From assembly GCF_019649055.1 (NCBI RefSeq), contig NW_026570221.1, forward strand, positions 2,046,001 to 2,110,000: a DNA stretch of 64,000 bases. Direction: 5' to 3'. Below, piece after piece: positions 1,725-13,503 of this stretch (position 1 is the stretch's first letter; each line of letters starts with the position of its first letter). A program made the position numbers and the translations under genes. Below the pieces are notes generated by a model. That model was not told the DNA's origin. It saw only the letters and a list, made by a program, of their open reading frames with translations, and made no database searches. This DNA comes from Paramacrobiotus metropolitanus (lineage: Eukaryota; Tardigrada; Eutardigrada; Parachela; Macrobiotidae).

Positions 1725-4451
1725 TTTTAATACCGGGTTAACAATTAAAATAATACCACCTAAATTCACTAGTGTCTCGATCATCCTGGATATTTCGAGG
1801 TTTTTCAAAAATCTGTCACTTTTAATACAATATCTCTAGGCGTTATACAGTTTACTTGTACTTGTCTACAGTTGCTTGCAGTCGATCTTCGCCTTTTTTA
1901 AACTACAGCAATCAAATTTATATTTTGTCTAAAACTGCAAGTGGATTCCATATTAATTTGGTTGAGATTTCGATGCAAAGCGCCGGAAATTTAGTTTTAC
2001 GTGAGCTCAATAATTAAGCGCTAAGAAACCCGACATTTTTCTAAAAGAAAATTTCTGTGTCTTTTCAGTGAAGAGTCTATTAGGTAAATCCTTCCGCAAT
2101 ATTTAGTAATTACACAGTAATCCTTTTTTTAATATAAAGAAATGCACTCGTATGCACAGATATTTATATATCTCGTATTTACTCTATACTCTTATAATAT
2201 CTATATTTATACTATTAATAAACCTCGTCCGATGCCTAAACAATCTTATGGTTAGGAATAAAATGATCAGCAGTAAGCACTAAACTCTTATCACGAACTG
2301 CGATAGATTTATATGACGTGATAACGGATAAAGTACGTAATACTGCAATGCAATGTTCACATCTCCGCATCAAATTTTGATGATGAGCTTCAGAAGTGAT
2401 CTTGAATCCAGAACAGACAAACCGTTAGCGTATTTGATGGTCCGGTAACTTTGGCACTGCTCGTTGCTCGGCAGTGTCAGTACGTTTGTCTTATAGAAAG
2501 CGTCGTCACAGACAACATTATCCAATATATAAACATCGTCCACACGCGGCTGACACACACGGTACAAGTCAGATCGGAACAATTAACAAAGGTCAAGACG
2601 GTAGGGTCAGATTGAAACAACAGCCGGTGCACGCGTGTTGGGGTCAAGGGGAGACTGTTATGTTGACAACAGGAACCCGGTACGAACGTCATCATCCTAA
2701 TTACTCACACCAATTATCAGAGAGAAACAGAGAGAAATGCGCACAGCACAGCGTTGTTGTGAAACAATTACCATGTACGTATATCGATGACTGCACCGGC
2801 CGCACAGACTACTATCCTCGCTCGTCTCTTGCCCAATCGCTGCACATATCGTGCAGTGGCTAGCAGCTTGAGGAACCGGAAGTGCACTCAAGTGCCATTG
2901 CAGTCAAGAACCGGCAAATTGATACTGCGCTGCACAGCTGCCGTGCTACCGGCTACCTCAAGTTGCCGTGTGCTGCACCGTATTGTAGCGGAGTGATCCT
3001 CGCGCGGTGAGCCGGGTTCCGATGAGAAAAATGATCTTAATGTGTTACGCGACGGGGTCTGCTGATATGGGCTCATTGACAGTGATTATGCAAATTTTCC
3101 AAGGTGCTCATGTAATGCGGCGTAACGAAAAAGTGGACCGGTCGGCCAGACGACGCCGGTTCTGGTTGGGTCCGACCCAAATAGAACCGGCTCAGATTTT
3201 TAATAAATTGTTTTTTTTTTAAATTAAGGCTTTTCAAGCCTGCGGCCGCATTTTGTTGCAACTTGAACTTGCATAATATTATAAAAGCCTTCGAAATAAG
3301 CTTTACTTATAACACCTGTTGATTCAAATCTGAAATTCATTTAGCCAAAACTCGGCGCAAAAAAATACATTTTTTCCAAAAATTACCGAATGTTGTGTAC
3401 TATCACAAAATTATGTACAATTTATAAAACAAACATTATTTGGCATACAGTGCGTTCAACGGTAACAGCGACAAAAGCAAGATGGCCCAAGTTGACGCCA
3501 TCGTTCTACGATGCTCATCGTTCGTGTATTATAATTATGCCGAAGACGGAATATGGCAAAGTGCGGCTGCCAACCATTGGTATAAATTCATCTGACTTGT
3601 GACTTGTGACTTTGGATTAATGGTTTAAGTAGAACTAAATCTTGCGAAATTCATTTAATAAATACACAAGCACTGAGAAAATCCCTTCAGCATGTTTGAC
3701 ATGCGAAAACAAAATTAATTTAAAAAAAAATATTTAATAATGATTATGTATCAGACAACACGTGAAGTCAGTGCAGTCGGGTTTCAGTTTGATAGTCGGT
3801 TTCTTCGGCGAAAACTCAGCCGCTACATCGGCCTACCGCATAACTGGATGCTAAGCACAAGATCATTATGCAAAAAAACTTGAAGTTGTATTATGATCGG
3901 CGACTATGAGAGAGATCCATGAGATGGTCAGGTCCAATTCCAAACTACCATATTTCCCACTCAATATTAATGATTCCGCGTGCGAATCGACCCCGGCGTC
4001 ACTTGAGGGGCGTACGCGCGCGTACGTCGCCGGTTGGCCAGTGGTCATTGGCTGCCTATATATTACATTACCCGCGTCTCCACAACATATGCATAATGCA
4101 ACATCTTGCGCGAGTCTGATCATATATATGCAAAATAACCGACACTTGCTACTGCACCACGCAATCACGCCGGCTTCTCTGATTACCGCGCATCTGTCAT
4201 CCATCTGCACGTTGACGTATAAAAGCATACAGCACTTGGTTACAGTTCACATCTCGACCGGCGGACGTGACTGCTGTTTTTATACAAGCTACCGTTATTT
4301 TGTGTGTTTTTGTATGTTTGGAGAATTCAGCCCGAATTACGTTGTCGATGCGGTAGTGATTTACGGAAGTTTATGATACTGCGAATTGTCCATTTGGGAT
4401 TGAACTGGGAGCTATAAGGATTCGCCTCCTTCGTCTATTAAGTCTTAGAAG
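1725..4451. other. intergenic, no gene recognised
   Basis: About 2.7 kb between the GPCR stop and the CBM14 gene. Open frames here are short, overlap on both strands (2370-3260, 3866-4376) and resemble no family. The only structure I see is an inverted repeat at 3156-3190. The last few hundred bases probably include the promoter of the CBM14 gene. Confidence 0.5.
3156..3190. repeat. 17-bp imperfect palindrome (hairpin)
   Basis: The arms are CCGGTTCTGGTTGGGTC and GACCCAAATAGAACCGG. They are complementary except for two adjacent positions and are separated by one base. It lies outside any recognised gene. It could be a regulatory dyad or a transposon remnant; the sequence does not decide. Confidence 0.6.
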
Positions 4452-7400
4452 ATGAGGTTGTTGTTGGTCGCCGCGGTCTTGTGTGCCGCTTATCATAACC
4501 TTCAGGTAAGTATTTTTACGACGTAGTTATGTGTTAACTATACGAAGTAGGAAAATGTGACATAACCTTCTGCTTAAATTGATCTTATAATTAATAATAT
4601 ATGCCATTTGTTATTTTAACATAAAACAGAAATAATGTACGTACACGTGTATGTAGACGCGCGGGTCGGATTTCTAATTTTGCAATTGCGTCTTTTTCCT
4701 ACGGGCATCCTACTGTATGTAATTTGTTCCATCATTTCCATCCATCTGATGTTTTCCGTTGCCATTATTCAAAATTTACGAGTAATTTGACTTGCAGAAT
4801 GCGAATTAGGTACGATTGTCAAAATTAATACCAAGTACGATCCCGGTATGCATTTTCAACTTCTTTATATCGTGGTAAAGCAAGATAAAAATATAGATAT
4901 GGTATTACTCGTAGTAAGCGCAAGTACATTTGCCGACATATGTAATATCGTACAGTCATTTATGAGGAAATTTCAAATACTGGTGCAAAATTTCTTTAGT
5001 TTCTGGAATTTAGCCGAATTGCTAAGGACCATTGTTTTTTCAAAGAGGCGTTACGATTTTGTAATTCTTGTACATTTACAAGCTAAATGACGTAATGCAT
5101 CTACTGTATGTATATTAATTTTATAGTACTCAAGTAAAGTCAACGATTAGTGTACTGTAATATTACTGCTGCTGCTATACTGTAAGTACGTTTTCTATAC
5201 TCGTATATTTTAAATAAGATGATGGCATACAGTATACACCTGCGTTGACCATACTAGGAAAGCGCACCGCTGTCGGCTTGCACTAGAAGACCGAAGCGAA
5301 GCGGGAAACCAAGATTAAAATGTTTAATAAACTGTTTAAAAATACATTTTTTATATTTGAAAAGTATTTTTGTTTTATATTTATCATTTTTGGTGTGCTC
5401 TTCCATATTTTATTTAAAATTGTTAATGCGTGACCGACGTGACCGACGTGACCGACAAAATTCCTGATTTCTTGAACAGAGAGGACCTTCGCTTCGCTTC
5501 GGTCGATCACGGGAACACAAGTGCTGTAAAATTCGTATATTGTGCTGTAGTTTGTTAGCAACTGTTTAGCAGCGTTTTTAAAAACGCTCTTCGATATGCA
5601 AAAAAGGAAATTGTAATTTTCATTAAATTAACACGGCGCTGTTTCGCTGTTCTAGGCCAGTAGCCATAAAAAATCGTCAAGTCGGGGCAAAGCGAAGAGC
5701 GAGCGCAAGCGTAACATCGACTACACCGGCCCGGTCTCCAACACCGGCTATAATTCCCCGCTGGCCCAGGAGCAGGCCGTTTACGCGGCCGCCCCACCAC
5801 CCCGATCGTACGGTCCGGCCCCACCCCCTCAGAACCCGCTAGTTTTCGATGCCCTGGATATTCTGCGCGGCCGACCCCCGCTGACCGCCAAGGAAGCCGG
5901 TGATGTGGTGGCCTATTCTTCCGGCGGCAAAGACTTCCCGGCCTATCTGGAGATTCCCAAGACCTACTTCTCGTGTGAACACATGAAGCCGGGATTGTAC
6001 GCGGATCTGGATCACTACTGCCAGGTGTACCATCGGTGTGATGTCGGCGGTAAACAGTCGACGTATCTCTGCCCGCCCAAGACACTGTTCAATCAGATTA
6101 CCCTGGTGTGCGACTGGTTTTATAATGTCAACTGTCCCAAGTAAGCGAGAAGATTTTTCAGCCGGCAATAGCGTTGTAATTATTTATGGTCCTGGTTTTT
6201 TATTTTTAATGTGTTACAGCTCTGGTACGAACCACTGGGCTGGCTTTTTAATAATGATAGAATAGCTATTCAGTTTTAGCGCTCTTGAAAACTTTGTAAG
6301 TGACACATGCTCAGTTTTTGTAAATTCCATACTCGGCTGGCTCTGTTTTGAACTGCAGTGGGCTGCAGCTGCAGTTCATTTAACATCGCATCGCGCACTT
6401 TATAATACTCGACAAAGTAACTTAGTACAAAAAAATTTTTAGTGCAAAGCGTTTTAGAACAGAGCTTTATAACGGAATAATAACTTACTGCAAACCTTTC
6501 AGAAACAAAATTGTGCAAGATAAAAATATTTTTGATGTGTTATACAATGTACTTTTGTGCAGATGCGTATCTTCTCTACGAGTAGAGGTCAAAGGATATG
6601 TTTAATGTTAATTTGAACCGGAGCGGAAAGATGCCACCGTACTACAACTGCTTCACAGTTTATTTGCATATTGACTCCTGCAGTGCACGTGTGCAGGCCT
6701 GTATGAGCGCGCGCTTAGGATAGTGAATAAATCATATTAATATTTCCCTGGCAGCTGATCGCCTACAAAAATTCAATGAAATATAACTTGTGACATCTAA
6801 AAGTAACTTGAATTACGTGCTTCTTTAGCTTTACTTCGTCTGTTACTATGGATCGAAAATTCGAAAGCAATTTCGAATTCGAATTTCGTGTGCGGACGTT
6901 AATCCATTAAACTTAACTTAACTTAACTAAATTAGTAATGTTCCTGTTGCAGCTCACGGCAATTTATTGAATACTCCAACTCCCGTCTGTACTATCCCCA
7001 GTGGCACGTTCTGGACACCCAACTTGACTATGTCCAACCCTACGTCCAACCACCGCCCCCCGCGCACGTCCAACCCTACTCGCCCCCGGCCGCCGCACCC
7101 CAACCCCCGCCGGTCCTGTATCCCGGCGTGAAATCCGCCCAGCAACCACTGTACAGCAGCAACATCAACGGCCACGAGAATCCCGAATACCAGATGTCGG
7201 TGGTGATTCGCAACCCCCAGCTGATACCCGACTACAGTCTGGGAGCGGAGAGTAATCTCATGCCCAGTAAAGAGCAACTGGATCAGCCGTCCGTCATGCT
7301 ATCGACCCCCGTCCCACCCCCGCCCTCGATGGTCAATATTAATATGGGCAACGGAGCCGGCGCGGGCGGCAGTGAGACGGTCGTGGTGGATGCGCCGCCC

Positions 7401-7653: not shown

Positions 7654-8663
7654 GATTCTTGAAGCATAGTAGATCAGTTTCACGAAATTCAACGTTTTTA
7701 TGGCATGACAGCGGCATTCGTTGACCGCTGGTCAACCGAGTGTACCATCGGGTGAATCGGGTGCCATGCAGTGACGGGCATGCACTGATCGTTTCAGCGC
7801 TACGAGTAGCCTGCAGTAAAACGTAATGCACTATGTCGTAAATGCGATAATACTGTTACGTATTTATAAGGCTGCCGAGATTTCAAAGGTGAAGGGATAA
7901 TTAATCATCGTTGTACAGTGTACAGATACGACTACAGAGTACATACTCAGGTCACGGCAATGATATTAATCGTATTTATATAATAGTACTTTATTCAAAA
8001 TACACAGACTTATCATCATAATCAAGTTCAGCCTTAAGAATACAACCGACAAAAGCTGCACACAGTTTAGAATAATTTTATAAGTACGAATACTGAAAAG
8101 CGAAACAACGATGCCGCTGGTTCAGTCAACCCAGATATAACGACAAAACAAAGTTCTGGAATTTTATTTTGTAAACGGACTTGTAATTCTAAGTACGCAA
8201 TAAACGAATGCATAGTACCAGTTGGGATACTTTGTTAAATTCAACAGTTCTTATCGGAATAATTCACGGGTCAGCGACTCAGCGTTCACAGAAAATGTAA
8301 AGCAAATCTATTAAGGCTATCACGCAGATATCACTAGTCAAAATGGTATGTGTGGTAAGATGTTGTAGCGCTAAATAAATCGGGCGAATCTATCCTTCCG
8401 CGAAGCCACCTGGAAAAGAAAACAGCATCCTGCAAATCACTGTACCAATCACGCAAGTTGACTGCACACCGAAATGTAGAAAGCTATTACGAGCACGATG
8501 CCGAAATAAAACTTAACAGGGGTAACAGACTTTTTTCAGCTTTTCCACAATTCGGGATTTTTTGTTCTTAGCCATTAAACTGCAATACTAAACGATTAAA
8601 CTACTAAACAGTAAACAGCAATACAGTCAACCGTTTAAAACGTTTAAGTGTAATTTCAAATGG
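7654..8663. other. intergenic, no gene recognised
   Basis: AT-rich sequence with only short shadow frames. No domain, RNA gene or clear repeat was seen. Confidence 0.5.
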
Positions 8664-8897
8664 TTATAAAACATAAATCTGTGCAGTTACGTTAACAAGA
8701 TTTCCTTGAACCCAAACGTAATTAGAACCTCTTCGTACACTTGGTCCGACCGGTTTCTGGGATAGTCCCGCTGTGAAAGGGGCCTGCGTCACTGGCACAG
8801 TAACAGTAGGGACCATCGACGGCAACGCACCAGGCGGTGCAAACTCAGTGCTTGCAGTGGAGAGATCACAACAACTGATCCAATCCGGTTTCGCCAT
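8664..8897 (-). CDS. small ORF, Pro/Val/Thr-rich, unrecognised
   Basis: A 77-codon ATG-to-stop frame lies downstream of, and on the same strand as, the NR-MH1-THAP gene. The middle is rich in Pro, Val and Thr and no domain is recognised. The strand and position would allow it to be a separate small gene or a terminal exon of one starting near 9182. Nothing in the sequence proves it is expressed. Confidence 0.25.
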   Translation of the reverse strand: MAKPDWISCCDLSTASTEFAPPGALPSMVPTVTVPVTQAPFTAGLSQKPVGPSVRRGSNYVWVQGNLVNVTAQIYVL

Positions 8898-9011
8898 TTC
8901 CGCGCGATTGTTCTTGAATCACAGATGTACCCGCTTTACCCTTCACGCTGCTTCCCTTTCCGCTTTTTTTCGACTTTTCCCTTCCCTGCTCCTCTTTTCC
9001 CTTCCCCTTCA

Positions 9012-9182
9012 TTAATCAATCAATTCCGCAATACGCTGGAGCTCCGCGTAATGAAGGATGAGCTTCCGTTGATACAACGACTCCATCATCGCAATTTGAT
9101 CAGGCCGAAAATGCTTCCGCGTTAGTTTTTCGGCGGTTTCGAAGTTCTCCAACTTGAGTTGTTGTTGTGCAGCACCGGCCAT
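9012..9182 (-). CDS. small helical ORF, unrecognised
   Basis: This is a 56-aa frame starting MAGAAQQQLKLENFETAEK. It is charged and strongly predicted helical by eye. An in-frame extension upstream to 9290 lacks a convincing start. An (ATTG)n stretch lies just upstream at about 9182-9204. I recognise no family. It could be a small tardigrade-type orphan gene or chance. Confidence 0.3.
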   Translation of the reverse strand: MAGAAQQQLKLENFETAEKLTRKHFRPDQIAMMESLYQRKLILHYAELQRIAELID

Positions 9183-9841
9183 TTTGATTGATTGATTGAT
9201 TGATTTAATTTCGAGTAGCCAAGCCCGTAAACGGGCACTCTCACATATCCTTATCCGTTGAAGAACATCAAATATGCTAAGGCTAGTCAAGTCACCACAA
9301 CTCGTTAAACACCAGTAATACGAACGCTAGAGAAGCAACACGTCACAGAATTGCTGTAGGCTAATACGGGCACAAAGCTACGTTTTCGAAACAACTAGCC
9401 GCATAAAGCAATCGCAAAGTACCGGCTGTGTTTTTGCACAAGGCACAAAGCCACAGAACAACAAGATCAGTATCACTCTATATCGCATCCGTATCAAAGT
9501 TGAGTCGAAGTTGAGGCCCCTTCGTACGTCCACGTACGGCAGCGAAGTGGTGAGTTGATCCACGTAGAATCCGTATTGACCACAGGCGTCGAGGAAACGT
9601 ACACGCCACTCCGTACGGTCAGCGCTGATGCCGACTAACCACTTCGCACACAGCCTTGCGGGCCATGCACTCGCAGCCTGAACTCAGAGTGGTCACCCAT
9701 CCAAATCCAAACCGCGCTCGATGTAGGCTATCTTTCAAAATCCGAAGATCCATCCATTTAGCTACACAGAGTGTGGCTTTTCAGTTACGTTTTCGTTTTA
9801 CGCTTGCTGAGATACACATATTTGCCCCGTGCACCACATCA

Positions 9842-11840
9842 TCATTGCGCAATAAAACTGTTGAGGTTTTTCTTCTCCTCGGTTTTTTCAAAACCCAAAC
9901 GGGCATTGTCTCTTCTCAAGGGAGCGATTCTGATTGGCTTTGGCATAAGCTGTGATGGTAATGCCGTATTGTTCAGCTTCCGGCGCTTTCCACTGCTGCA
10001 AAGCAAGGATATATTAGCTGCCTGTATAAGCAAATGTTTCTTAATTTTACATTTGAACAAAATCCGATTCAAGAAAATGCTCTCCACAAATACGGTGGTG
10101 CTTGGTAAATCCCGTCTTATCCAAATCTTGACGAGCGCACAAGGAAAAAAACTGCAAATATCGCTCTTCGTTTGCTGTTCTGTCCGGCAGACGGAAAAAT
10201 CCCACGTTAGCATGACTTCCAGTGTAATTATTGCAACTGGCAACAACACAGACTTGTCCAGCCGGCCCCGGCTTCCCTGCCTTGCAATAATGGTAAGGAT
10301 TAATGCAAACGGCACTCGTATCCACCGTGCAGTTATGTGAAGAAACAACTTTGCTCGCTGCCACACGATTCCAACGGAATATCCGTGCGGTCAGAACATG
10401 ACTCAAAACCTCGTTTTCGTTCACCTAAACGCATAACAAAATTAATAATCCAACAGAAAATAAGAACTTAAAATATTCTAAAATGCAAAAAAAAAATAAA
10501 ACTAGATTATAAACTGAACTGTAAAACTGTAGACAAACAAAGCTGTAGATTTATCAATTTCTAAACTATACGCAGGCACCTTGAGAAATTTATGCGGGAA
10601 CGGCACGCATGCGGTTTCTGCAGAATCTTCTTCCTGCACTGCACGGAGTAGTTTTTCCAAGTCGTCCACACTGTGGGCATTGCGAACGACAGCTCTGATA
10701 GCCATTTTGGCAAAGGCAGTAGGGTTTTGTGGGTTGCGCAGTCCCAAGAGCTCCGCTTCTAGCCGAGCGCGGTCTGGATGTTTCAAAGATTTCCTTTTAT
10801 CCATGCCGACTGCTAGACATCTCTCCAAACGACATTTGCTGCACGACTTGAGACGAACATTTTCCACCGCACACTGACCGCTTCCTTTACATGTCAAAGT
10901 CTACGGCAACAGAAAGACGGTGATGAATGATGAAAAATTCCAAAATATCAATTCGCATGCCCTCATACTGAACAAACCGTTTTATTCCAGTTGGCCATAA
11001 AAAAGCTCTTGCAAGGAATACACGTCAGCACTCCGCAACACAAACCGGATGCAACTTCCAGGCATACAGCGCAACGGTCCTGCTGCATGCTGTCTTCTGA
11101 AACACAGGACACAGACTGAATCCATGTGCAAACACAACAATACGCTTGAAACTGTTTTAAATCAGCTATCCAGACAGAGCAGTCGGTTCTGCAATGACTA
11201 TCGAGATTTCCGCGTTGCGAGAACGGAACGATATTTGAAATGAATGATTTAACAATCATGAAATTTACAGCAAAAAAAACATTGTTCGATTAGTCACTGC
11301 CTACCGTGAGCGCCCGTATCGCTGAGCAGATTCGTCTGATCGACGCCTTCCATGGCCTCGCTGAGATGCTGCTGATGGGCCAGAAGAGGCGCTTGGCTGT
11401 CTGTGTTTGGGATCGGCGCTGCACGGGCGAGATCGTGAACGGTGCAGCTTACGCTGGTCGACGAGGGGCTCTCGGCCTCTCGCTGATCCTTTACGGGCTT
11501 CAGGAAAGCCCGCTTTAGCCTTTAGCCAGGCAAATATGATCAACCAACATCGGCGCGAGTCTCAGACAGTCCAAACGCCTCTTTATGGTCGTAACTGTTA
11601 GAATACGATCGAAGTACTATGTCTACAATCTGATAAACCTACAATAATCGACACGACACTAGGAAACCATAAAAATAAGAAAATTCATAAACGGTAAAGC
11701 CGTAAAGATCAGCACTTTGATTTATCACTACGAGTATCAGCATTCAGCGCTGCACTGCGGGCTCTCCCTCTCCTGTAACTTACCATTAGAAATTTCAAAT
11801 TACTGTGTTTCTTGACGTTCTTGCCCGCTTCGGGTGGCAT
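9842..11840 (-). CDS. nuclear-receptor DBD - MH1 - THAP fusion protein (probable novel transcription factor)
   Basis: Six exons are read from 11840 down: 11784-11840, 11305-11512, 10978-11096, 10580-10900, 10051-10424 and 9842-9995. They give 410 aa with every phase consistent. Residues 97-160 form a nuclear-receptor DNA-binding domain with exact C4 spacing in both fingers (C-x2-C-x13-C-x2-C; C-x5-C-x9-C-x2-C) and the tail CRLERCLAVGM. Residues about 190-282 form a compact SMAD MH1 domain (FAKMAIRAVV, HVLTARIFRWNR, VCINPYHY) with all zinc ligands, C226, C267, C275 and H280. Residues about 294-375 form a THAP finger (C294, C299, C348, H351; TALPS for the usual AVPTIF). There is no ligand-binding domain and no MH2. 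Family knowledge says each module binds DNA; that one protein carries all three is my reading of the gene model. The exon joins inside the NR and MH1 domains support a single gene. The first exon is the weakest part; a start at 11353 is an alternative. Confidence 0.8.
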
Positions 11841-12031
11841 CTACGTGCAAACCAGTCCATGCCGTCTGTCTGAAGCAGGAGCAGTGCGCGGTTTGTGATT
11901 TTCATTTCTCCTCGAGTTTGAATTTTTACATCGTGCATTCCAGTGTCGATTTTGTTTTTCTGGTTACCATTTATGAAATTGTTGTACTAACTTTTGACAG
12001 GCGCCGGGATTCCCAACAAGCAGATGTGAAA
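11841..12031. promoter_or_regulatory. candidate bidirectional promoter (NR-MH1-THAP gene / NDUFA12)
   Basis: The two predicted start codons point away from each other with only 191 bases between. Any promoters must lie in or overlap this gap or the first exons. No TATA box stands out. This is inference from layout. Confidence 0.4.
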
Positions 12032-13503
12032 ATGTCCTTGATCAGTAAGGTTGGCAACCTGATGCGGGCGATCAAGCAGAACGGAGGCATCGTGAATTCC
12101 GCGTACACACTGCTGGTGACGGATGATTTGAAATGGGGAACACACGTTGGCACGGATAAATACGGGAACAAGTATTACGAAAACAATTACTATTTCGTCG
12201 GTAAGCCCATTCTAAACCATTTGTTGTTCTTATTCTGTCCACGATGCATCGTAAATGGTTGACATTACGAGTTGCAGCGTAAGAACTGCACAGGCAGTAT
12301 ACATAAAGTGGTGTGCACACTGCACATTCAAATGACGATTCACGGGAAATTTGTCATTATTTGTGTGTAAATTTTCAGGGAGGAATCGCTGGGTGATCTA
12401 CAATAAGGCCTTCTTTGTGGATTACGATGGATCGCAGATTCCAGCGGAATGGTAAGTGTATGTTTACAGTACATAAATTATTTAAATAGTTGTAAATTGC
12501 GATAAACTAATTTGTTGTTTGCTGTTATAAAGTGTTATTTATTTATGGTTTTCTAATTAACGTGGATTTGCTGATAATTTTATGATTACTCATACTGTAT
12601 TTGTTTGTTATTTACGCATTGCTCTGTAAAATTTCTAAATCTTTTACAGCGAAACAAATTCGGCGGTGTTTGTGGTGGGTTTTCTGTTGCACGTGTTGGT
12701 AATAATTATAAATTATTCATTTTCTAAAGGGTTTATCATGGGGAGCTGACTTACTGCGAAGTGCGAATACCCCATCAGTGCCATCACTAATAATTATCTT
12801 GCCGCGTGAATTTACTGAACTTTTTTCCTGGAATGGGAATTATAGGACTATCACCTGAAACATTGGTTTTGGCATTTGTCGGCTGTCACCCGCGCTTAAA
12901 TTTTCTGGTGTTTTTCGTTTTGTGCAGTTTTAATAAATTTAGAAAGCATTTATTGTGGAAATGGCAGCTTAAAATGAATGCCGATTGTTTTAAAGTGAGC
13001 AGTAGTTTGAAAATTGAATGGTAAAAGTTTTGCCATATCAAAAAAATTACTACGGAAGAAGTACTAGTACAATGCAAGTACATGTTGACCTTTTGAACTG
13101 TAGATCTACTGGAATTAACTGGATGATTATGGCACATAATTATATTGAAAGTTTTTCTGTTTAGAGTCTTTAGACAAAACTACAGCTTTCATAATACGCT
13201 ACCTTTTTGTGAACAGAATGTTGAGGACACTACATAAATTCGAATTTTCTTTTGCCCAGGCATGCCTGGATGCATTACACCACCGACTTGCCACCGACAG
13301 TGAAGCCCCCGGTGAACTACAAGTGGATGGTGCCGCATCAGGAGAACAAGACCGGCACCAGCGAGGCTTACTTCCCCTACAGCACCACGCGCACCAAGGT
13401 GCAGTCCTGGATGCCGCAGCATCTGCGCGGGGCCGACTACGATGAGACCACCAGCCAGCTTGCATCCGGTCCGAGCAGCGACTCCCACAGACAGAATGCT
13501 TAA
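12032..13503 (+). CDS. NDUFA12: NADH:ubiquinone oxidoreductase subunit A12 (complex I, B17.2)
   Basis: Exons 12032-12200, 12379-12451 and 13260-13503 give 161 aa. The N-terminal part has the family's run GTHVGTDKYGNKYYENN, then the conserved RNRWVIY, and after the second splice the WHAWMHYTTDLPPT block that links the family's core to its C-terminal tail, ending in a YxPYSTTRTKVQSWMP-type stretch. The length matches the usual 145-160 aa. It is an accessory subunit of mitochondrial complex I, on the matrix arm. The third exon begins with one base completing the Trp codon split across intron 2. Confidence 0.95.

Follow-up and report, generated by a model that had tools for sequence, protein, structure and literature searches.

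The gene that joins three kinds of DNA-binding domain in the window, i.e. the whole 64,000-nt stretch of Paramacrobiotus metropolitanus DNA that was analysed (C1:2046001-2110000, in a genome of 169.8 Mb), is very probably an internally deleted, transposon-derived copy of a P-superfamily DNA transposon. Its nuclear-receptor (NR), MH1 and THAP domains go back to a parent transposon family in which a THAP transposase acquired NR and MH1. An earlier note on this DNA had tentatively proposed the opposite, namely a domesticated THAP tail on an NR-MH1 host factor. The link to a THAP transposon holds; the direction is rejected, as NR and MH1 joined a THAP transposase that is the frame of the gene, and the window copy ends in a terminal inverted repeat (TIR).

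Splicing of six minus-strand segments in phase reproduces exactly the 410-aa protein of the earlier note, with every proposed zinc ligand at its proposed residue number. All three domains exceed the Pfam gathering cut-offs: zf-C4 at residues 96-163 (E 8.6e-15), MH1 at 195-282 (E 1e-12) and THAP at 294-374 (E 5.4e-12). The reading as one gene with NR, MH1 and THAP domains is thus confirmed, and the Pfam run on the spliced protein, suggested as a check, finds both MH1 and THAP significant. The N-terminal part of the protein also matches NR DNA-binding domains (DBDs) of solved structures, e.g. the estrogen receptor (1hcq, E 1.1e-11); estrogen and glucocorticoid receptor DBDs of solved structures match the zf-C4 at E about 1e-11. 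Neither an NR ligand-binding domain nor an MH2 is matched among the five families listed by Pfam for the 410-aa model, as had been read from the sequence.

The database protein of this gene (P0001; P. metropolitanus, 337 aa) is named "nuclear hormone receptor family member nhr-10-like isoform X2". It starts at M73 of the 410-aa model and corresponds to residues 73-410, minus one residue at a NAGNAG acceptor. Its first coding segment (MEGVDQTNLLSDTGAH; 11305-11353, minus strand) ends at the donor GTAGGC; residues 1-16 of P0001 match window positions 11353-11306, and the start is placed as in P0001. NR zinc finger 1 (CAVC...CIPC) is encoded at 10978-11096 (minus strand), an exon supported by splice sites, phase and the zf-C4 match; P0001 uses an acceptor 3 nt further in. 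Exon 10580-10900 (minus strand) carries both NR zinc finger 2 and the N-terminal half of MH1, as previously claimed; splicing, Pfam and paralogs agree on this.

Exon 10051-10424 (minus strand) encodes the rest of MH1, its C-terminal half (VCINPYHY), together with most of THAP; this exon is supported by splicing, Pfam and a comparison with host SMAD introns. THAP is split by an intron too: the end of the domain (GKRRKLNNTALPS), a basic tail and the stop are encoded in the last exon (9842-9995, minus strand), and splicing and TIR alignment place its final codons inside the 3' TIR. An annotation merge of separate genes, already considered unlikely in the earlier note, has a negligible probability and is rejected: the domains have exons in common, the splices are in phase, the second half of MH1 and THAP share one frame, and paralogs have the same domain order.

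The six-exon coding model is supported by P0001 from position 11353 downstream; its upstream part is not. Exon 1 (11784-11840, minus strand) lies outside the homology to the element, and the P0001 start and the alignment to the C20 copy give no support for coding there or in exon 2 upstream of 11353. No pyrimidine tract precedes the acceptor at 11512. Residues 1-72 of the model are not accepted because P0001 starts at residue 73 and because, upstream of this start, gaps between the window and C20 are not multiples of three. As P0001 is called isoform X2, a longer isoform may nevertheless be conceivable.

The alignment to the C20 element breaks off in the THAP tail at 9868 and continues from 9864 inside the 3' TIR. 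At this deletion junction (9864-9868, minus strand) the element coordinate jumps from 1956 to 5662; about 3.7 kb, including the transposase, is gone. The 3' TIR remnant (9813-9867, minus strand) follows directly, with 39 nt (9864-9826) at 90% to the C20 TIR and an extended alignment over 9867-9813. The last codons and the stop of the window gene derive from this repeat. At the other end, a 5' leader (11354-11757, minus strand) is homologous to the part of the element that follows directly on its 5' TIR; window 11757-11294 aligns to positions 2850-3287 of L039, and position 11757, where the homology to the C20 element sets in, is immediately internal to the expected 5' TIR. The 5' TIR itself was not found in the window (score 24, against a mean of 22.8 and a maximum of 41 in 300 shuffles). 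Without this repeat, the window copy should be unable to move and is probably immobile.

An NDUFA12-like complex I gene is the head-to-head neighbour of the copy and lies outside the element. Its first exons are at 12032-12452 on the plus strand (PF05071, E 6.7e-4 and 1.1e-4 on two open frames), and its ATG, read from the sequence at 12032, is about 190 bp from the proposed exon 1 region on the opposite strand. On the other side of the copy, a stretch at about 9700-9240 with the motif GGATGGGTGACC presumably resembles 5S rRNA, and a short run of TCAA repeats is found at 9187-9204; together these are perhaps a retroposon tail. Rfam gives no match in window 8500-13500.

Same-genome search and regional comparison identify seven related loci: the window (C1), C20, C29, C99, C89, C2 and C33. 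NR, MH1 and THAP all align in five of them, among which the C29 copy has frame breaks. The C2 and C33 copies are internally deleted; THAP is gone from both, along with the very end of MH1 in C2 and its second half in C33. Between C20 and C29 the identity is 99% over 5.7 kb, and their flanks differ. The C99, C89 and C2 copies are 96-99% identical in their common parts, and C89 and C2 lack internal stretches of differing extent. The window copy is single, with a next best DNA match of 74% in the genome, and its deletion junction is absent from the other six copies compared. THAP (PF05485) is present in the database proteins P0001, P0002, P0003 and P0005.

Two of these loci call for separate comment. 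C29:71961-77660 is 99% identical to C20:907747-913462, and small indels in C29 break its frames; this is either a recent transposition or an assembly error. C33:876064-876618 (L044; P0006) is named ecdysone receptor-like; what it represents is the NR DBD from a transposon copy with an internal deletion, and the name is misleading.

In C20, C29 and C99, THAP is followed by long open frames. The frame is continuous from the end of THAP into the transposase part in C29 and C99; in C20 the two are not in one frame. TNP-like_RNaseH_N (PF21787) is matched by ORFs of C20 (E 7.2e-13) and C99 (E 1.1e-8), and also by ORFs of C5 and C370, which belong to a second group of loci described below. C29 matches part of the RNase H model in the genome search (E 5.6e-7), and the window copy is without PF21787. 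The match of Tnp_P_element to C20 is below the cut-off (E 0.0063).

A profile of the transposase stretches of C5, C370, C99 and C20 finds one protein at E 1e-5 or better. This is a P-type transposase which carries PF12017, PF21787, PF21788, PF21789 and PF22824 (Tnp_P_element, both TNP-like RNase H domains, GTP-binding, THAP9_C). The GTP-binding (PF21788) and RNase H C-terminal (PF21789) domains are undetected in the nine ORFs scanned, which suggests a divergent family transposase. A PDB search with the C20 transposase part gives chance matches only. The best four of 18 TNP-like RNase H matches (C8:1793817-1794236, C2:2951867-2952286, C153:60381-60800 and C1:3439097-3439516) lie away from MH1 matches, and two of them have open frames of 653 and 842 aa.

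TIRs are 94 nt long in C20 (100% identity), 127 nt in C99 and C2 (95%), 117 nt in C5 (98%) and 143 nt in C370 (99%). Exact 7-bp TSDs flank eight of the ten elements readable at both ends (C29, C99, C89, C2, C5, C370 and two MITEs); six of the seven positions match in the remaining two, C20 and C33. The TSDs of C29 (ATATTAC), C99, C89 and C2 were computed; those of C5, C370, C20 and C33 were read by eye.

A search with the 94-nt repeat gives at least 40 genome matches. By our own count, the ends of C20 and C29 account for four of these and those of C33 for two; 28 are arranged as 14 MITE-sized inverted pairs, and the other six stand alone. The inverted pairs indicate that non-autonomous relatives have the same ends as the elements. 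MITE-like pairs, e.g. C10:1353095-1353652, C77:72485-73039 and C2:1006304-1006859, mostly have the first 59-77 nt of the transposon TIR in common, and TSDs of exactly 7 bp flank the two MITEs whose two ends could be read. One more pair, at C2:1860892-1861414, has 93% identity to the 3' end of the window copy.

Neither NR half-sites nor SMAD sites are enriched in the five TIRs scanned (25 motif-by-TIR tests against simple base shuffles), a comparison of low power. The scan of these TIRs for NR, SMAD and Maf sites gives one TGCTGA in the C99 TIR (P 0.04). The palindrome GTGCAC occurs in three of the five TIRs (P about 0.02 each), a motif picked after the TIRs had been read.

A second group of loci (C5, C17, C155, C370 and C21) carries MH1 and THAP. 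No NR is found in their upstream frames or in P0005, the protein at C155. TIRs and RNase H matches are present in two of the five, C5 and C370. A Maf bZIP model is matched before MH1 in P0005 (E 9e-4, below the Pfam cut-off) and in the 89-aa N-terminal piece of P0007 at C5 (E 0.007, also below the cut-off); the whole of P0007 gives nothing at 0.01, and the N-terminal piece at C17 has no Maf bZIP match in Pfam. When the three N-terminal pieces are used as a profile against the PDB, the best six of 16 distinct sequences are all Maf (best E 0.0033). These Maf-bZIP-like stretches (L045, L047 and L048; P0005, P0007) are suggestive only, and their sequence similarity hints at a sister MH1-THAP lineage with a Maf-bZIP-like N-terminus in place of the NR. 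The second half of MH1 and THAP share one open frame in the NR-bearing and the Maf-like lineages.

A third group consists of L050 (C12:1829430), L051 (C12:1816671) and L053 (C166:70390). All three match MH1, in L050 below the cut-off, and two of the three match THAP; L050 and L051 are MH1-THAP genes, and L053 is MH1 only by Pfam. No inverted repeats of 40 nt or more are found at these loci in the 8-9 kb examined. They may be domesticated MH1-THAP genes. The existence of MH1-THAP genes without TIRs of 40 nt or more (L050, L051) would also fit a host NR-MH1-THAP regulator that exon shuffling had produced before transposons acquired it. This order of events is highly improbable: THAP belongs natively to P transposases, the window copy, too, has a TIR at its end, and the NR-bearing copies with readable ends are transposons.

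Intron positions bear on the source of the added domains. The start of the second MH1 exon (phase 0) precedes the end of the FRW/FRG motif by 18 residues in the window, C20, C99, C5, C17, C155, C12b and C166, with acceptors read from DNA, not cDNA. C370 agrees by acceptor reading, and L050 differs in this position. The same position and phase are found in the host Co-SMAD-like gene at C2, the only one of six host SMAD-type genes examined to have them. In the R-SMAD-like genes at C4 and C34 the MH1 intron lies nine residues later; in C3, which is also SMAD4-like, it is later than in C4 and C34; it is earlier in C14, and C12:1832082 has none in MH1. These subtype names are provisional, given from sequence features. 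Because position and phase are those of the C2 gene, a Co-SMAD-like gene appears to have contributed MH1 in the form of genomic DNA, at a time when the NR-bearing and Maf-like lineages had not yet diverged.

The NR donor gene was not found among the host NR genes compared. Two split host NR genes were read; the intron between finger 1 and finger 2 has the position and phase of that in C23, which we take to be HR96-like, and is unlike that of C11. The best host DBD matches, C16 and C15, have no intron at this site. The Maf intron, considered as evidence of a host Maf origin, gives no support, as the intron of the Maf-like lineage is three residues off that of the one host Maf gene read for this comparison.

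Of 906 coding nucleotides aligned with C20, 173 are different in the window copy, and still its 337 codons contain no stop. The two sequences give dN 0.139 and dS 0.609 (NG86, 302 codons), or 0.143 and 0.466 by ML. With C99 as outgroup, and with 38 unpolarised differences and codons with an outgroup gap left out, non-synonymous and synonymous changes number 39:30 on the window branch and 30:30 on the C20 branch. The neutral expectation is 78% non-synonymous, and the window branch (39/69) departs from it with a binomial P of 8e-5, mutation bias not being allowed for. The window branch is somewhat less constrained than the C20 branch (ratio 0.38 vs 0.29). These values are moderate evidence of purifying constraint on the window copy, since silent sites are saturated against the C99 outgroup and the constraint may predate the deletion.

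The same values weigh on a less favourable explanation, in which the window copy is a decaying, functionless transposon fragment whose open frame survives by recency and whose database entry is an automatic prediction. Frame breaks or deletions in other copies (C29, C2 and C33) and a deletion junction not found in the other six copies are in line with such decay. The stop-free frame despite its many differences from C20, and a window branch far from neutral, argue against it; it is possible but doubtful.

The parent family has a transposase with an N-terminus of zf-C4, MH1 and THAP in this order, followed by an RNase H-like transposase part; the window copy retains the three domains and has lost the transposase and, as far as detectable, the 5' TIR. 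The window protein is presumed to be made, the predicted-protein record being the only hint of expression, and to enter the nucleus. THAP would be the part that binds the TIRs of related elements and of MITEs, and MH1 and NR would contribute affinity or specificity. The protein could then either compete with active transposase, like the KP and 66-kDa proteins of Drosophila P, or take on a DNA-binding regulatory role for the host. The chances that it has one or other of these roles are about even. Repression of related elements in the manner of KP, taken by itself, is a tentative suggestion by analogy, with a probability well under even.

A further explanation is that the gene is a domesticated host transcription factor which uses the NDUFA12 promoter and controls genes near MITEs with the same TIR. 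The single locus (next best DNA match 74%), the 5' TIR that was not found, the closeness of the exon 1 region to the NDUFA12 start on the opposite strand (about 190 bp), and at least 14 inverted MITE-size TIR pairs elsewhere in the genome would all agree with this. However, no other species has the gene in protein searches and the role is predicted only; domestication of this kind is unlikely. The lineage-specific regulator of the earlier note fares in the same way: the gene is confined to one species in the protein searches run, and its regulatory role is a prediction.

The transposon-derived reading can be extended to a broader model. Tardigrade P-superfamily transposons would have a modular N-terminus which takes up DNA-binding exons of host transcription factors before THAP, i.e. 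a Co-SMAD MH1 with its intron, then an NR DBD or a Maf-type bZIP depending on lineage. The window gene would be a domesticated product with three kinds of DNA-binding domain, acting on TIR sites spread by MITEs. As a whole this model is rather unlikely.

Among 5.8 billion proteins searched, 1895 are candidates and three of these reach an E of 0.001 or better; all three are from P. metropolitanus, and the first is P0001. A profile of six N-terminal parts finds 20 proteins at E 0.01 or better. Seven of these are from P. metropolitanus, including all with MH1 plus THAP; the 13 from elsewhere have MH1 and MH2 (eight) or, as listed, MH1 alone (five), and no MH1-THAP protein from outside P. metropolitanus is among the 20. 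The protein search needs common 5-residue words and limits length, and relatives in other tardigrades could be missed. The earlier note knew of no protein with the order NR-MH1-THAP, and no account of this architecture is present among the matches listed in the open-licence literature. A count of 42 C4-type zinc-finger proteins is given for P. metropolitanus in the available part of PMC12941274, in the main text of which MH1 and THAP do not occur.

Host regulators are known to have received DNA-binding domains from transposons. In this case the transfer appears to have gone the other way, twice and perhaps three times, with DNA-binding domains of host regulators taken up by transposons and kept beside their own THAP. 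The NR-MH1-THAP hybrids make it testable how a transposase gains or changes its recognition of ends, and whether such hybrids turn into regulators or repressors. There is also a warning for annotators: the names "nhr-10-like" and "ecdysone receptor-like" given to copies of this family could lead work on tardigrade receptors astray.

Knirps-type nuclear receptors are host genes with an NR DBD and no ligand-binding domain, and the window protein resembles them in this; we know of no MH1, THAP or TIR in these receptors. With SMAD4/Medea (Co-SMAD) the window gene shares the MH1 zinc ligands, and its MH1 intron has the position and phase of the C2 host gene; in the SMAD4-like host gene C3 the intron lies elsewhere. 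Unlike SMAD4/Medea, the window protein has no MH2; consequently, neither Smad-type signalling nor trimer formation is expected of it.

Among transposons, Galileo (P superfamily) has long TIRs and mostly 7-bp TSDs with the consensus GTANTAC, according to the available part of PMC4168063, and is described with a THAP domain in that of PMC3688188. In its long TIRs and 7-bp TSDs (ATATTAC in C29) the tardigrade family resembles Galileo. In contrast to the tardigrade family, no NR or MH1 is mentioned for Galileo in the available part of PMC3688188. THAP9 and zebrafish P-like elements combine THAP with a P-type transposase in animals and have internally deleted relatives; unlike in the tardigrade family, captured transcription-factor domains are not mentioned for them in the available part of the source (PMC7776569).

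Drosophila P has a THAP domain, an RNase H-like transposase, TIRs, internally deleted copies and 8-bp TSDs, as given in the available part of PMC7776569. The first four of these features recur in the tardigrade family. The families differ in their TSDs (7 bp in the tardigrade family, 8 bp in Drosophila P) and TIRs (94-143 nt vs 31 bp), and the tardigrade family, unlike Drosophila P, has MH1 plus NR, or a Maf-like stretch, before THAP. The 66-kDa and KP proteins of Drosophila P are truncated, keep the DNA-binding end and act as repressors, according to the same part of that source (PMC7776569). In KP as in the window copy, an internal deletion leaves the DNA-binding part.
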